The notes under the pieces were generated by a model. The model did no database searches. It saw only the letters and a list, made by a program, of their open reading frames with translations, and was not told where the DNA came from. A DNA stretch of 23,621 bases from a virus. Numbering within the stretch: position 1 is the first letter of the stretch; every line of letters starts with the position of its first letter. The position numbers were made by a program, and so were the translations under genes. Below, piece by piece: positions 4,603-14,812 of the stretch. The stretch lies in IMG/VR virus record IMGVR_UViG_3300032308_000916, positions 1 through 23,621 of that record; one strand, 5' to 3'.

Positions 4603-7600
4603 ATGTTAAGGGATGTATTTTATTACGGAGCCAAACCAAACGTTCACCCTCGTGAAAGATTCGCAGAATCATTAGACGATGCTAGGCAAAAGTGTACGAC
4701 ACACAGCTTTTGGATCATCAATGAATTCTGCGACTATCGAGGGTTTGATTGGGACTTCGATTTTGAATTCTTACCCGACGAAGATGTCTGGGCAGAAGAC
4801 CACAACAATGTATGGCCTAGTCAACATCAGAAAGATAGCGGGACATGGCTGTGTCCTAAAGAACACAGTGACATAATCATCTATCGCTGTGATGTCGATT
4901 TTGTCACACGCAGAAATGTCAATAACGACAACTGGGTTGAACTTGATCTGATCGATCACTCCAAGTTCGATTTCTCATGGCATCCCGATCCTACTGACCC
5001 GCCCTATATCTACAAGTGGGGATGTAAGTACTTTCCTGCACAGCTTAAGCACGTACTAGAATATAGAGTGCCTGGCGCAACTACTGAGAAGTATATGTCT
5101 TCGATAGTTGAATTGTTGCCTGCTGTTGGCTGGGTAGAACATCAAGAGGTTGACAAGAACAAGTTTGATATGTCATGGCGACCTGACCCAAGAGAACCTC
5201 CCTTCATCTATGTTTGGGGGAACAAGTGGATTGATGCTAAAGTTGAACCAACACTTTCCTACCACGCACCCGGGGCTACTGATAAAAAGTACATGAGCAA
5301 TGACGTTCCCGTTCTTCCTGAATGGGACAGATGGGTTGAAGTACAAAACGTAGATAAAAACAATTTTGACTTCTCCTGGAGACCCGACCCAAGAGAACCG
5401 GCCTACATTTATACATGGGGCAACAAATGGGTTGATGCGGTAGTCTGTCCTACCCTGGAATATCATTGCGATGGCGCAACAGACAGAAAGTATATGAGCA
5501 ACGACGTTCCCGTTCTTCCTGAATGGGACAGGTGGGTTGAACATCAAGAAGTTGATAAGACCAACTTCGACTTTACTTGGCGCCCCGCCCCAAATGAACC
5601 GGCATACGTATACACCTGGGGCAATAAGTGGATTGATGCTACCGTTAAACCCACGCTTGTATACCAAACTCCCGGGGCTACTGATAAAAAATACATGAGC
5701 AACGACGTTCCCGTTCTTCCTGAATGGGACAGGTGGGTTGAAGTACAAAATGTAGATAAGAACAATTTTGACTTCTCCTGGAGACCCGACCCAAGAGAAC
5801 CGGCATATGTATACACGTGGGGCAACAAGTGGGTTGATGCGGCAGTTTGTCCTACTTTAGAATACCATTGCGATGACGCAGCGGACAAAAAATACATGAG
5901 CAACGACGTTCCTGTTCTTCCTGAATGGGACAGGTGGGTTGAACATCAAGCGGTTGATAAGACCAACTTCGACTTTACTTGGCGACCCGCCCCAAATGAA
6001 CCGGCTTACGTTTATACATGGGGCAACAAATGGGTTGATGCCACAGTCGAACCAACACTTTCTTACCGCGCGCCTGGGGCTACTGATAAAAAATACATGA
6101 GCAATGACGTTCCTGTTCTTCCTGAATGGGACAGGTGGGTTGAACATCAAGCGGTTGATAAGACCAACTTCGACTTCACTTGGCGTCCTGACCCAAGAGA
6201 ACCGGCCTACATTTATACATGGGGCAACAAATGGGTTGATGCGGTGCAACGTCCTACCTTGGAGTACCATTGCGATGACGCAACGGACAAAAAATACATG
6301 AGCAATGACGTTCCCGTCCTTCCTGAATGGGATAGGTGGAAAGTTCTCAAGTCAATCGATCAATCAAGCTTCGACTTCACTTGGCGACCTGACCCCAAAG
6401 AACCTCCCTTCACTTACGTGTTCGGCAATGAGTTGTATGATGCAGTCAAGATGCCTACTGTTACGTATAACATGCCGGAAGGTTCGGTGATCAAGTATGT
6501 AGACTTCCAGAAGGCAAGGTTAGTTAGTGATGCTAGCAGTTATGAATATCTAGAAGATTCATACTTAGCTGATCTTTCGTGGGCTCCTGATCCTGACGCT
6601 CCTCCGTATATCTATGCATGGGGTAACCAATGGAACAAGCCGGAAGATAAGATTTCAATACAGTATGTTGTCCCGGGCGCTACCGAGTATGTATACATGA
6701 AAGAACGAGCAGTTCGTAAACCTTGCATGGACAATTGGTATCTTCCTGAAAACGTAGATACCACTGGGTTTGACTTTTCATGGGAACCGCACCCCAAAGC
6801 TCCTCCGTATATCTATCAGTTTGCGACTCAACTAGATGATGTCTGGGTTGATGATGGTCCTAGATACGTCGCGCCGGGCAACGATGGATTTGTAGTTAGA
6901 ATGGAAAACTCAGTTCTATCTACAAGTAAAATTGAATATCCTAGATATACGATAGAAACTACGCTAGACGAGTTAGTCAAGAAACATCCTACCGAACAGT
7001 TTTGGGCGCTTAATAAGAACATCAACTACGATGATTTTGACTTTAGCTGGAGACCTAATAAGGAAAGTCTATTCAATGTAACCGTGTTTGGTTCTCCTGA
7101 AAGTGAACGCACACACACTTACTTTGTCAATGCTAAGTTCTATCTGCAAGGACACACTGACTTAGACTTCGTTCAATCCGGAGTAGAATTGGATGACAAA
7201 TATCTAGCTAAAATCTTTGTCAAGCCAGACCTCTTTTTTGTTGACAGAGGCAACACTGAATCTGCCACCAGATTTGATACATTGAAAGAGAAGTTTGGTA
7301 CGAGGATTCAAAAGACTCGCTATCTTAATTCGTGGGTAGATACTATCAATCGTTGCACCAATCGTGCAACTACTGAAATGATTTGGATTCTCAACAGTGA
7401 ACTAGACTATGATGACTTTGACTTTGAATATTACCCTAACCCTTGGCAAATGAAAATGGTGCAGGTGTTTGGGACTCAGTGGTCACACTGGGGTACTACA
7501 TTCATGGTCAACTGCGAGACGTTCAAAGAAGATACGAAATACATCAACATCATTGAACACTTATCAAATTTGAACTTCGTTAAGACTACCAAAGCAAAAG

Positions 7601-8964
7601 CCACTGCCTGCGTTCATGATGTTGTTATGATTGATCACGGAAACAGCGAACTGCGACAGGTCAGTGATCGAGTGGAACGGCAAACTGCAAGAAAGTTATT
7701 AGCTACGATACCGTATGATAAAAGCTACTTGAACACACTCAAGAACTTTATCAAGAAGTTGCCGGATAAGAAAGAACACTATCTTTGGATTTGCTCAAGC
7801 GTCTGTGACTACTCGCAGTTTGACTTTGCATATGTCTGTGATCCATTCTCCAGAGATAATCTTCATGTGTTCCCGAGCGACACCCAGAAGTTTGGAGATA
7901 CTTTCTTCATAGATGTGAATAAGACTAAAGAGATTATCGATGAACTAGAGGAGTTGGAAGAATATCATAAGATCAACTTCAATGGTTCGACACGGTCCTC
8001 TCGTTTATCGGCTCCTCTTATTTTTTCCAGTGATGACATGCATGTGAATTCTCTAGATAAAATAACAGGTTTCCCGTACGCTACGATCATCGCAGATGAC
8101 AATATCTTTATGGACGCGCCACCTGATGAACCCATGAATCTATGGTCTCCTGAGACGAAGAACATTATCATAACAAGTACCGGTGCAACACGAATCATCG
8201 TGCCAGCAGAAGCCAAAGACATTGTTAAGAAAGAACTATATGACTATCCGTACGTCAAGCGAATGCTCAAACTTACAAAAAGCGAACCGCTTGACATCGT
8301 GTTCGTGAGCAACGGGGAAACCATAGCTGAGCAAAACTATGAACACTTGTTGAAATTTACTGACGGACTAGCTAACAAAATTCACCGGGTCGACGGCATC
8401 AACGGCAGAACAGAAGCATTACACGCTGCTGCTAGAAGCAGTAAGACACCCTGGTTCTTCTGCATCCCTGCAAAGTTATTTGTCAATAAGAAGTTTGACT
8501 GGAGTTATCAAGCCGACAGGATGCAGCAGCCCAAACATTATATCTTCAATGCATTGAACCCTGTCAATGACTTATGTTATGGACACCAATCAATGGTGCT
8601 GTACAACAAGAATCTGGTCCTTGGCAACGAGGGAGTTGGCTTAGACTTCACGCTAGACAGCCTGCATATGTCTGTTGACCTTATTTCGGGTACGGTGTTG
8701 GGCGACACAGACGAATATAGCACATGGAGAACTGCCTTCAGAGAAGCAGTGAAACTAAAATGCTATTCAGAAACTGGCGACGCGGCGGCTATCACACGGC
8801 TTGACGTATGGACTAGCGTTGGCAAAGGTAACTATGGGGAATGGTCAATCAAGGGTGCATTAGACGGCATTGAATTCTATGACGAAGCCGGCGGCGACCT
8901 AGCTGTACTGCGACAAAGTTACTATTGGGATTGGTTAAAAGCTAGATACGAAAGTAAGTACTAA
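4603..8964 (+). CDS. Giant modular repeat protein with glycosyltransferase-like C-terminal region
   Basis: The 1453-residue protein is the largest in the window. After an N-terminal unit (HSFWIINEFCDYRGFDW), about ten modules of 66-67 residues run from residue 111 to roughly 775. Each module has a core F-D-[FM]-[ST]-W-x-P-x-P followed by Y-x-Y/W-G-N-x-W and a PGATDKKYM-like end. Six units (177-578) are nearly identical. Three more distant variants (FWALNKNINYDDFDFSW, IWILNSELDYDDFDFEY, LWICSSVCDYSQFDF) lie around 805-1100. The last 220 residues (from about 1227: DIVFVSNGE, then GRTEALHAAARSSKTPWFF) resemble a GT-A-type glycosyltransferase start, but no clear DxD was identified. No signal peptide or membrane helix was seen. 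Its place beside sugar and carbamoyl genes suggests glycan binding or transfer. That role is inference. Confidence 0.6.
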   Translation: MLRDVFYYGAKPNVHPRERFAESLDDARQKCTTHSFWIINEFCDYRGFDWDFDFEFLPDEDVWAEDHNNVWPSQHQKDSGTWLCPKEHSDIIIYRCDVDFVTRRNVNNDNWVELDLIDHSKFDFSWHPDPTDPPYIYKWGCKYFPAQLKHVLEYRVPGATTEKYMSSIVELLPAVGWVEHQEVDKNKFDMSWRPDPREPPFIYVWGNKWIDAKVEPTLSYHAPGATDKKYMSNDVPVLPEWDRWVEVQNVDKNNFDFSWRPDPREPAYIYTWGNKWVDAVVCPTLEYHCDGATDRKYMSNDVPVLPEWDRWVEHQEVDKTNFDFTWRPAPNEPAYVYTWGNKWIDATVKPTLVYQTPGATDKKYMSNDVPVLPEWDRWVEVQNVDKNNFDFSWRPDPREPAYVYTWGNKWVDAAVCPTLEYHCDDAADKKYMSNDVPVLPEWDRWVEHQAVDKTNFDFTWRPAPNEPAYVYTWGNKWVDATVEPTLSYRAPGATDKKYMSNDVPVLPEWDRWVEHQAVDKTNFDFTWRPDPREPAYIYTWGNKWVDAVQRPTLEYHCDDATDKKYMSNDVPVLPEWDRWKVLKSIDQSSFDFTWRPDPKEPPFTYVFGNELYDAVKMPTVTYNMPEGSVIKYVDFQKARLVSDASSYEYLEDSYLADLSWAPDPDAPPYIYAWGNQWNKPEDKISIQYVVPGATEYVYMKERAVRKPCMDNWYLPENVDTTGFDFSWEPHPKAPPYIYQFATQLDDVWVDDGPRYVAPGNDGFVVRMENSVLSTSKIEYPRYTIETTLDELVKKHPTEQFWALNKNINYDDFDFSWRPNKESLFNVTVFGSPESERTHTYFVNAKFYLQGHTDLDFVQSGVELDDKYLAKIFVKPDLFFVDRGNTESATRFDTLKEKFGTRIQKTRYLNSWVDTINRCTNRATTEMIWILNSELDYDDFDFEYYPNPWQMKMVQVFGTQWSHWGTTFMVNCETFKEDTKYINIIEHLSNLNFVKTTKAKATACVHDVVMIDHGNSELRQVSDRVERQTARKLLATIPYDKSYLNTLKNFIKKLPDKKEHYLWICSSVCDYSQFDFAYVCDPFSRDNLHVFPSDTQKFGDTFFIDVNKTKEIIDELEELEEYHKINFNGSTRSSRLSAPLIFSSDDMHVNSLDKITGFPYATIIADDNIFMDAPPDEPMNLWSPETKNIIITSTGATRIIVPAEAKDIVKKELYDYPYVKRMLKLTKSEPLDIVFVSNGETIAEQNYEHLLKFTDGLANKIHRVDGINGRTEALHAAARSSKTPWFFCIPAKLFVNKKFDWSYQADRMQQPKHYIFNALNPVNDLCYGHQSMVLYNKNLVLGNEGVGLDFTLDSLHMSVDLISGTVLGDTDEYSTWRTAFREAVKLKCYSETGDAAAITRLDVWTSVGKGNYGEWSIKGALDGIEFYDEAGGDLAVLRQSYYWDWLKARYESKY
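4933..6735 (+). repeat. Tandem coding array, 201-bp period (about nine units)
   Basis: Units begin at 4933, 5131, 5332, 5533, 5734, 5935, 6136, 6337 and 6538. Those from 5131 to 6336 have an exact 201-base period and very high nucleotide identity; the outer ones are diverged. A further diverged unit starts at 6736. Units at 5332+5533 resemble 5734+5935 as pairs, pointing to a 402-base higher-order duplication. Several long antisense frames over this region are by-products of the repeat. Confidence 0.92.
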
Positions 8965-9701: not shown

Positions 9702-10070
9702 ATGAAGAAGTTTATCGCAGCAGTAGCTGCATTATCACTAGTTGCTACCCCTGCTTTTGCAGACCATCGCGGCGACCGTAGGCAGCATGAACGCCATGAT
9801 CGTAGCGGTGCAAGCACAAGCGAAGTGGTCGCTATTGGTGTTCTTGGAATGGTGATAGGGGGAATTATCGGCAGTCGTAGCAACGAAGAACGTTATCCTT
9901 CTCGAACAGTAGTGGTAACTCCACAACAGTATGTTTACGAAAACCGCTACTATAATCCTCCCCGAGTAGTAACTCGACCTCAGCCACGACAAGTGTGCCA
10001 GGACGTAGTTCAATATGATTATTACGGCAATCCTTATGTGGCTGGTCGTAACTGCTGGTATCAGTATTAA
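9702..10070 (+). CDS. Secreted or envelope glycine-zipper protein (122 aa)
   Basis: A classical signal peptide is visible: MKKF, a hydrophobic core to residue 17 and an AFA cleavage site after residue 20. The mature protein starts with a charged stretch DHRGDRRQHERHDR, then one hydrophobic glycine-rich segment VVAIGVLGMVIGGIIG (about 42-57) of the glycine-zipper type, then a tyrosine/proline-rich tail. Two cysteines in the tail (VCQDVV and NCWYQY) could form a disulfide in the periplasm. AAGGAG (9688-9693) eight bases before ATG fixes the start. The tail resembles bacterial RcnB/17-kDa-antigen-like envelope proteins only in general style. Export is well supported; function is unknown. Confidence 0.75.
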   Translation: MKKFIAAVAALSLVATPAFADHRGDRRQHERHDRSGASTSEVVAIGVLGMVIGGIIGSRSNEERYPSRTVVVTPQQYVYENRYYNPPRVVTRPQPRQVCQDVVQYDYYGNPYVAGRNCWYQY

Positions 10071-10157
10071 GGTATTAAAGAATTAGTTGTTGACGTAGAC
10101 TGAAAAACGGACAAGACGGGAGTGCGATTCTCCCCGCCTCCACCATAAAGAAATTGC

Positions 10158-10331
10158 ATGATAATTTGTATATGTCGTGACATAAGAGAATCTCACTATA
10201 GCAATCGTGAGGATCTAATCAAAAGGGTCCTTGAAGAAGATTACTGTTGTGGGTCTTGCTTAAAAGAGTTTCTTTATGATGGGGGCGACCAGTATCGATT
10301 GACGTATAATAGGAAAGCCGAGACTGATTGA
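10158..10331 (+). CDS. Bfd-like [2Fe-2S] ferredoxin encoded in the tmRNA intervening segment
   Basis: This 57-residue ORF starts at ATG 10158, 12 bases after the tmRNA acceptor CCA, crosses the intervening segment and stops at TGA 10329-10331, 51 bases into the tmRNA coding piece. It begins MIICICRDIRES and has a second cluster DYCCGSCLKEFL. The cysteines C4-x-C6 and C31-x2-C34 follow the bacterioferritin-associated ferredoxin arrangement (E. coli Bfd: C4, C6, C38, C41), with the inner spacing seven residues shorter. Bfd proteins bind a [2Fe-2S] cluster and pass electrons, for example to release iron from bacterioferritin. Residues from about 42 on are read from tmRNA sequence. No strong ribosome binding site was seen (AAAGAAA only). 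The cysteine pattern is convincing; expression is inferred. Confidence 0.65.
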   Translation: MIICICRDIRESHYSNREDLIKRVLEEDYCCGSCLKEFLYDGGDQYRLTYNRKAETD

Positions 10332-10357
10332 CTGGCAAAGTGCCAAAAAACGTAAAT

Positions 10358-10402
10358 GCAAACGATAACAATGCATATGAGGATTTCGCTCTAGCGGCAT
10401 AA
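10358..10402 (+). other. tmRNA tag-peptide reading frame
   Basis: The resume codon GCA (10358-10360) follows CGTAAAT. The frame reads ANDNNAYEDFALAA and ends at TAA 10400-10402. The ANDN start and the hydrophobic ALAA end are the standard degradation-tag features recognised by ClpXP-type proteases. Confidence 0.93.
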
Positions 10403-10496
10403 TCCATCGGGGTATGAGTTCCACCTGGCAACAGAACGGGCTCACTTTTAATTCACGAGACTAAATAGTTAAAATACGATTTTTATGGAGTATACT

Positions 10497-10813: not shown

Positions 10814-11218
10814 ATGCGAGACTTGATCAACATTGTCGAGAACTTGCAAGACGATATGCGGGATGCTCGTATGGTGTTTGACGACTGGATGAATGCTATG
10901 GAAAACACCCAGTTTCAAATCAGAAATCATTTTGATGTTACTCCGTACTTTAAGAACCCAGAACTAACAGAGGTCCCTGTGGAAAAATGCTATATTTTTC
11001 ATGATTGGGGCAGACGAGTTTCAGACGAACAGTTGAATAATCCTATCATCGTCATGGCTCGCCCGCAAGGCGGGTATGCAGTTCTTGATGGACAGCATAG
11101 AGTGATGAGATTGAAACAGGAAAACATTCCTACCGTGAAAGCATATGTGATCACCCTGCCCTGGCAGTTCTTAGGTAAGTTCGGCGGCCAGAGAAAATAT
11201 GTGCTTGATGGGAAATAA
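10814..11218 (+). CDS. ParB/sulfiredoxin-fold domain protein
   Basis: The C-terminal half of this 134-residue protein shows the ParB/Srx core: PIIVMARPQGGYAVLDGQHR (about 77-96) followed by VMRLKQENIPTVKAYVI. The DGQHR box is the nucleotide-binding element of this fold. It is used by ParB CTPases, ParB-like nucleases and sulfiredoxin. The N-terminal 70 residues are helical and unknown. No helix-turn-helix DNA-binding domain follows, so it is not a full partition ParB. No Shine-Dalgarno sequence is visible before the ATG; an AT-rich TATTATACT lies only three bases upstream. Confidence 0.7.
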   Translation: MRDLINIVENLQDDMRDARMVFDDWMNAMENTQFQIRNHFDVTPYFKNPELTEVPVEKCYIFHDWGRRVSDEQLNNPIIVMARPQGGYAVLDGQHRVMRLKQENIPTVKAYVITLPWQFLGKFGGQRKYVLDGK

Positions 11219-14470: not shown

Positions 14471-14812
14471 ATGAAAGACGCAATTTACTTCACGGATATT
14501 GCTAAAGAACACTTTAAGCAGATATGTGATAACTCCAAAGCACTTGGGGTTCGCCTATCGCTTGCTGGCGGAGGCTGTGCTGGATTCAGTTACAAGTGGG
14601 AGCTAGTCAATTCTGCTGATGATATTTCCTCACATGACTACTGCAAAGCGTATGATGATTGGACGTTTTGGCTAGACAAGACTTCTGAACTATTCTTGAT
14701 TGGAAGCACGGTAGATAAAAAAGTAGACATCACAGGCAGCGTGATTGAAATCAAATCACCCTTAGCAGCTAGCAGTTGCGGCTGCGGCGAAAGTATTAGT
14801 TTTAAAGCATAA
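14471..14812 (+). CDS. A-type iron-sulfur carrier (IscA/ErpA/HesB family)
   Basis: The 113-residue protein has the usual family length. It keeps all three ligand cysteines: C36 in GGGCAGFSYKW and C103/C105 in ASSCGCGES. The intermediate LIGSTVDKKVDITGSVIEIKSP matches the conserved LxGxxxDyxxxxxGxxFxIxNP region. A-type carriers accept [2Fe-2S] or [4Fe-4S] clusters from the Isc/Suf machinery and hand them to target enzymes. HesB-like genes are known in some marine phages. It could mature a phage or host Fe-S enzyme during infection, and a Bfd-like ferredoxin lies 4 kb upstream. Its start region is a near copy of that at 13880. No classical Shine-Dalgarno sequence was seen beyond GAAAG. Confidence 0.92.
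   Translation: MKDAIYFTDIAKEHFKQICDNSKALGVRLSLAGGGCAGFSYKWELVNSADDISSHDYCKAYDDWTFWLDKTSELFLIGSTVDKKVDITGSVIEIKSPLAASSCGCGESISFKA

Follow-up and report, generated by a model that had tools for sequence, protein, structure and literature searches.

A 57-codon open reading frame (ORF) lies inside a tmRNA gene in the window, by which we mean the whole stretch of viral DNA analysed here (one record, 23.6 kb), and it raises the question whether the segment between the two pieces of a permuted tmRNA can be a protein gene and what such a gene would encode. The tmRNA, at 10085-10446, is permuted (two-piece) and of the alphaproteobacterial type. Two Rfam families matched it at full length and above their gathering thresholds, RF04321 tmRNA_permuted at 10085-10402 (97.2 bits, gathering 47) and RF01849 alpha_tmRNA at 10035-10446 (90.2 bits, gathering 50). 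The gene was missed by ARAGORN run on the window. Its order is the permuted one, the acceptor 3' strand and CCA being upstream of the acceptor 5' strand with an intervening segment (IVS) between them. Because GGGGGCG at 10281-10287 pairs with CGCCTCC at 10135-10141, which is followed by the discriminator and the CCA at 10143-10145, the IVS was placed at 10146-10280. The tag frame, ANDNNAYEDFALAA and a stop, ends in a hydrophobic Ala-Ala tail, as permuted tmRNA tags do. Mature two-piece tmRNA lacks the IVS, and by analogy with this known biology the segment would be removed in the window as well. The features of the locus are listed below.

10085-10145, plus strand: tmRNA acceptor piece with T arm and CCA (CCA at 10143-10145), from the Rfam RF04321 and RF01849 matches
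10146-10280, plus strand: IVS of 135 nt, between the CCA and the acceptor 5' strand
10146-10155, plus strand: 5' strand of the helix closing the IVS, from a 10-bp pairing with 10267-10276
10158-10331, plus strand: 57-codon ORF with a Bfd-like cysteine layout, from the ORF listing, the substitutions against contig L001 and Bfd profile comparisons
10267-10276, plus strand: 3' strand of the helix closing the IVS, from the 10-bp pairing with 10146-10155
10281-10446, plus strand: tmRNA coding piece, starting with the acceptor 5' strand GGGGGCG, from the Rfam alignments (3' end approximate)
10358-10402, plus strand: proteolysis tag frame ANDNNAYEDFALAA with its stop, read from the sequence and Rfam-aligned

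The ORF was found exactly where the original prediction had placed it, with 57 codons, an ATG 12 nt after the CCA and an end 51 nt inside the coding piece (stop TGA 10329-10331). ATG 10158 is the only reasonable start, since an in-frame TAA at 10146-10148 precedes it. The IVS accounts for codons 1-41, the last of them ending exactly at 10280, and the coding piece for the other 16 codons and the stop. The C-terminal tail, YDGGDQYRLTYNRKAETD, is encoded by sequence of the tRNA-like domain, as had been claimed; because the tmRNA sequence dictates most of it, this tail is no independent evidence of protein selection. The predicted cysteines were also present, C4, C6, C30, C31 and C34 forming CxC ... 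CCGSC. No canonical Shine-Dalgarno sequence (SD) stands before the ORF, TAAAGAAATTGC-ATG having no 4-nt match to AGGAGG.

An open frame alone is unremarkable in such a short segment, and an early ATG ORF of at least 25 amino acids was found in 11% of shuffled IVSs (13.4/119). The frame was compared with that of L001, another viral contig of the same arrangement, which is also present as L007. The two 135-nt IVSs differ by 11 substitutions, with no indel and no stop. One substitution precedes the ATG and 10 are inside the ORF. Eight of these ten affect the third base of a codon; the other two, at a first (I/V) and a second (Y/F) position, are conservative replacements. The third-position excess has p = 0.0034, or 0.010 allowing for three frames, and pN/pS for the IVS part of the ORF (IVS-only codons) is 0.06. 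The flanks differ at 1/61 positions in the acceptor piece, 1/80 in the coding piece and 3/303 in the downstream gene. Judged by these substitutions, the IVS is the fastest-changing part of the locus, yet it is changing like protein-coding sequence. The comparison supports a window frame that is real and conserved at the protein level in its one homolog. The original prediction had looked to related segments for conservation at synonymous sites, and had counted against itself a want of Bfd similarity together with frameshifts or stops in homologs; L001 has the synonymous excess and contains neither a stop nor an indel.

L001 was the only further homolog of the ORF in the searched collections, which are fragmentary. 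A CTCCACCA pattern search for more Bfd-type ORFs returned L007 and six unrelated chance matches. Gp26 of Bcep781/Bcep43 (34% identity, E 0.4, inside a 522-bp gene) was rejected as a chance match, and L002-L004 were rejected as protein homologs, their match to residues 39-57 only being DNA identity of the tmRNA. In these three contigs the tmRNA pieces are almost unchanged and the upstream gene is similar, but the IVS measures only 14 nt; the ORF is therefore a spacer module that can be inserted or deleted. Downstream of the tmRNA, a 134-codon ORF at 10814-11218 (plus strand) has a weak ParB-like match (PHROG 1033, E 1.6e-5).

As for the identity of the product, the assignment to the bacterioferritin-associated ferredoxins (Bfd) held in part. 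The ligand set CxC ... CxxC (C4, C6, C31, C34) is present in the window and L001 ORFs and fits the Bfd type, but the pairs stand 7-8 residues too close, 24 residues apart in the window ORF as compared with about 31 usual in Fer2_BFD. The proposed HMM check against Fer2_BFD (PF04324) was likewise divided. A Pfam search of the window ORF gave no match up to E = 10, a PF04324 search across the record gave none, and a PHROGs search of the ORF gave none either, but a custom Bfd profile, built from 36 alphaproteobacterial Bfd-domain segments, scored the ORF at 9.7 bits (E 0.22), above 1998/2000 shuffles and above 1996/2000 shuffles with the cysteines fixed. With hhalign against nine single-domain Bfds, the probability was 89% and the pairwise E 2e-6; the aligned region runs from CxC to CCGSC and has a gap of 8 residues between the two cysteine pairs. 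An AlphaFold model of the ORF had low confidence (pLDDT 55), with helices at 17-26 and 32-40, and a Foldseek search with it gave no significant match. The PDB ferredoxin 1h98 (E 2.6) was dismissed as a chance match. Like Fer2_BFD, the window ORF has CxC near the N terminus, CGxC later and a predicted helix after the second pair; unlike it, the ORF has the shorter spacing, falls below Pfam detection and has a C-terminal tail fixed by tmRNA sequence.

The ORF might instead encode a real small protein that is a cysteine-rich, metal-binding peptide unrelated to Bfd. The silence of Pfam, the inconclusive structural model and the IVS ORF family of contigs L074 and L132, which is cysteine-rich yet not Bfd-like, are what such a peptide would lead one to expect; the profile, however, favours the real residue order over 99.8% of shuffles, also with the cysteines fixed, and the hhalign alignment spans CxC through CCGSC. 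We regard an unrelated peptide as a possibility that we do not favour, and we lean towards kinship of the window ORF with Bfd. A Fe-S_biosyn (PF01521) gene, a relative of the A-type iron-sulphur carriers, is located at 14471-14812 (plus strand) of the window; it fits an iron-sulphur theme and proves nothing.

The shortened cysteine spacing and the silence of Pfam, together with the missing canonical Shine-Dalgarno sequence, would also suit an ORF that was once a gene and is now an untranslated passenger in this phage. The ORF of the Coxiella 23S rRNA spacer offers a precedent, its expression evidence being doubtful in the part of PMC4990558 that was available. The eight synonymous and two replacement substitutions against L001, with no indels or stops, indicate constraint since divergence, and a passenger is unlikely.

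The original prediction had addressed this ORF alone. The instance itself stood, but it turned out to be one of a broad class of ORFs in viral IVSs. Permuted tmRNAs were collected by pattern scans of viral contigs, and all counts below describe samples, among the matches listed. The scans yielded at least 182 distinct viral IVSs, most of them chosen for a length of 90-150 nt, and a second sample, chosen on the coding piece only, yielded at least 88. Rfam confirmed 13/13 tested representative loci as permuted tmRNAs. Many of the viral IVSs among the matches listed open with a ribosome-binding sequence, and the ORF follows the CCA by 7-22 nt, for example ACCATAAGGAGTCTTATA-ATG in L184 and ACCAAAAGGAGATTAGTT-ATG in L026. 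An SD-led ORF was defined as one of at least 20 amino acids with an SD match of at least 4 nt, and was sought in the non-redundant IVSs of at least 60 nt (n=147, matches listed). Such ORFs were present in 29/147 of these listed viral IVSs, as compared with a mean of 2.7 and a maximum of 8 in 300 shuffles; with an SD of at least 5 nt the listed matches gave 12/147, and the shuffles a mean of 0.41 and a maximum of 3. The coding-piece sample gave 18/88 among the matches listed. The window ORF starts within the 30 nt after the CCA that delimit the class (at 12 nt), and is outside the set of SD-led IVS ORFs.

Alphaproteobacterial host IVSs had an SD-led ORF in 0/72 cases, a limited control as they are mostly 5-60 nt long and only 12 reach 80 nt. 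The class of G001 had been tried as the host control; it contains almost no alpha_tmRNA and was replaced by the class of G002. Some host DNA may be present among the IMG/VR contigs, and exonuclease and ribonucleotide reductase PHROG matches fit a phage origin for some. Among cultured phages, the IVS of Melnitz contains a frame of 54 codons that is SD-led, starts MFKWLSKTRLVV and has its stop in the coding piece. No SD-led ORF was found in the IVSs (about 90-110 nt) of isolates RcXuper, DSS3P8, Cp1R7A-A1, vB_EliS-L02, MD18 and CcrBL10, so the arrangement is common and not universal. In the deposited records of these six isolates (L570-L574 and L577), the permuted tmRNA is unannotated.

The IVS ORFs belong to unrelated families, several of which are, as judged from substitution patterns in their IVS-only codons, under purifying selection at the protein level. 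The values were as follows: family C (beginning MDEVLLWQFRQKCVEYICINNYS, 13 members), pN/pS 0.21 and third-position p = 6e-13; family B (MNWDWHWISWFKGTPFQWG, 7 members), 0.09 and p = 2.5e-5; family D (MWIYKCNVGEYTES, 5 members), 0.19 and p = 1.9e-5; the family beginning MSNQNLFWAFVILLG (3 members), 0.07 and p = 4e-4; and family A (MFDRLTEFFIKLFKIQ, 15 members), 0.33 and p = 8e-4. Overall, pN/pS in the main early-start families was 0.07-0.44. Overlapping alternative frames in the same IVSs served as an internal control and had no protein-level constraint (pN/pS 1.3, 2.3 and 3.9). By their sequences, several families resemble membrane peptides with a single helix, and one appears rich in cysteine. 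Ten representative IVS ORFs had no Pfam match above the cut-off and no convincing PHROG match, families A and C had no tblastn match in the phage collection, and family C was not found in 289 host genomes, an empty answer that shows little. Taken with the window, we consider it probable that the 57-codon frame represents a genuine gene for a small protein, which sits in the spacer as a module and is one example of a recurrent phage arrangement.

Several of these IVSs have features of their own. The cysteine-rich ORF of L074 and L132 (141-nt IVS), beginning MKYCKNCKHYWTKGTKGKWCCKFGKKCEKA, is possibly metal-binding, with no Pfam or PHROG match. L500, L510, L522, L528 and L550 (IVS 159-183 nt) seemingly contain two overlapping ORFs each, an acidic peptide ending in GDSDEEPSSKKNIGGNV before its stop followed by a peptide of membrane type, its ATG overlapping that stop (GTAATGTTTAA). 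In L500 these read MVIEMLGDSDEEPSSKKNIGGNV with its stop and then MFKLYITWSICADIILIAGI, the second ORF being read by eye. Families A and C each occur with quite different T-arm sequences across many contigs, hinting that spacer modules and tmRNA bodies may recombine. In L059, some 230 nt separate two permuted tmRNA-like genes (L059:6648 and L059:6882), whose IVSs measure 143 and 81 nt.

The ends of the IVS pair in a helix of at least 7 bp in 95% of the non-redundant viral IVSs (matches listed), as compared with 26% when the ends are mismatched. The precursor region of the window folds 4.5 SD better than shuffles (z -4.5), to which the acceptor and T stems contribute. One could suppose from these data that the IVS is conserved as RNA only, as a processing hairpin, and that the open frame is fortuitous. 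The closing helix is found in nearly all IVSs with or without an ORF, the folding score is strong against shuffles, open frames of this kind occur in about 11% of shuffled IVSs, and the roseophage and other isolates have 90-110-nt IVSs with no SD-led ORF. Base pairing, however, does not predict a bias of substitutions to third codon positions, alternative frames in the same IVSs do not have that pattern, and viral SD-led ORFs are about tenfold over shuffles among the matches listed. A purely structural role is very unlikely.

In the window, the ORF fills the IVS loop, crosses the 3' strand of the helix and enters the tRNA-like domain. The SD was predicted to be paired in the closing helix in 22/32 SD-led cases among the matches listed, although an SD is near the helix by position anyway. 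The stop is in the coding piece in 12/32 SD-led IVS ORFs and inside the IVS in 20/32 (matches listed); the ORFs of the window, Melnitz and families A-C have it in the coding piece. As the ribosome-binding site is often predicted to be part of the helix between the two ends of the IVS, competition between translation and processing is plausible.

The arrangement may work as follows. The apical part of the IVS hairpin would hold short ORFs of unrelated families, recurrently in phages. In the window, the ORF would be translated, if at all, from the unprocessed precursor, from a start just inside the closing helix. Cleavage at 10280/10281, for which RNase P is the presumed enzyme, would sever the final 16 codons and the stop from the rest of the ORF, and because of this, tmRNA maturation and protein synthesis should compete for one transcript. 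A translating ribosome would open the helix and the acceptor stem, and folding and processing would mask the start and cut off the 3' part of the message. The product would probably be a shortened Bfd-like protein whose CxC ... CxxC cysteines could hold a [2Fe-2S] cluster, and it may act in iron or Fe-S handling during infection. We tentatively propose, with less than even confidence, that the precursor is a dual-function transcript for diverse small proteins, with start sites in the closing helix and stops often in the tRNA-like domain, that maturation and synthesis are mutually exclusive, and that the rescue RNA times or limits how a phage protein is expressed in this way.

The predicted cut would keep precisely 41 whole codons of the ORF and no stop, which would fit a switch like that of ArfA: the cleaved message would be non-stop, tmRNA rescue would tag the peptide for degradation, and stable protein would accumulate only when little mature tmRNA is present. 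For arfA, regulation by way of a non-stop message has been described (PMC8012679), and the stops in the coding piece of 12/32 listed SD-led ORFs fit such a switch, although a run into the coding piece may just be reading to the nearest stop. Like ArfA, the ORF would yield a possible non-stop message from RNA cleavage and so possibly come under tmRNA control; the difference is that here the cleaving step would be the maturation of the tmRNA, and that the stops of most IVS ORFs are within the IVS. Because 20/32 SD-led ORFs (matches listed) stop inside the IVS, this purpose was rejected for the class as a whole and the switch is a rival for part of it only, and a rather unlikely one.

The window gene is like other permuted tmRNAs (RF04321/RF01849; Melnitz, PMC9004378) in its permuted order, IVS, CCA, tag frame and viral origin, and differs from them in the conserved, protein-like ORF of its IVS, which extends into the coding piece. 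In the accessible parts of the literature on permuted tmRNA, the IVS is only a segment missing from the mature tmRNA. The available portion of PMC9004378 describes the Melnitz two-piece tmRNA with no IVS gene. In that of PMC11915505, a 2025 tmRNA database, one permuted IVS is described as containing a tRNA and another as containing a repeat, and homing endonuclease genes are noted in tmRNA genes interrupted by group I introns; ORFs in permuted IVSs are not mentioned in that portion. Like the window ORF, these endonuclease genes, as described there, are protein-coding and sit within a section of a tmRNA gene that can be removed. By contrast, the locus described here has no intron and no endonuclease; the gene is permuted, and the ORFs are much smaller, diverse and overlap a functional RNA. 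The Coxiella 23S rRNA intervening sequence with its S23 protein ORF, as given in part of PMC4990558, is similar in having an ORF in a helix-closed segment cut from a structural RNA precursor; it differs in the RNA, in the bacterial host and in the single larger protein family.

Given the group I intron endonucleases of tmRNA and the Coxiella spacer ORF, as far as these sources cover them, genes nested in removable segments of structural RNAs were already known. What is new here is therefore nested protein genes in another structural RNA, their diverse small cargo and the overlap with a functional RNA. Protein genes in permuted-tmRNA IVSs were not found in the accessible parts of the open-licence literature, in agreement with the view that no case had been described, and an earlier mention elsewhere is possible. 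A segment held to be discarded is a recurrent home of phage genes, and the tmRNA gene itself frequently goes unnoticed in phage genomes. Should conserved small proteins commonly be encoded in the IVS, a number of phage genes will have escaped notice, and the RNA would give a directly testable case of translation versus RNA processing on one molecule. Melnitz, being in culture with an IVS ORF of this kind, makes such a test possible now.

Elsewhere in the window, a 1453-codon ORF at 4603-8964 (plus strand) contains many tandem repeats of a DFSWRPDPREPAYIYTWGNKW-type unit.
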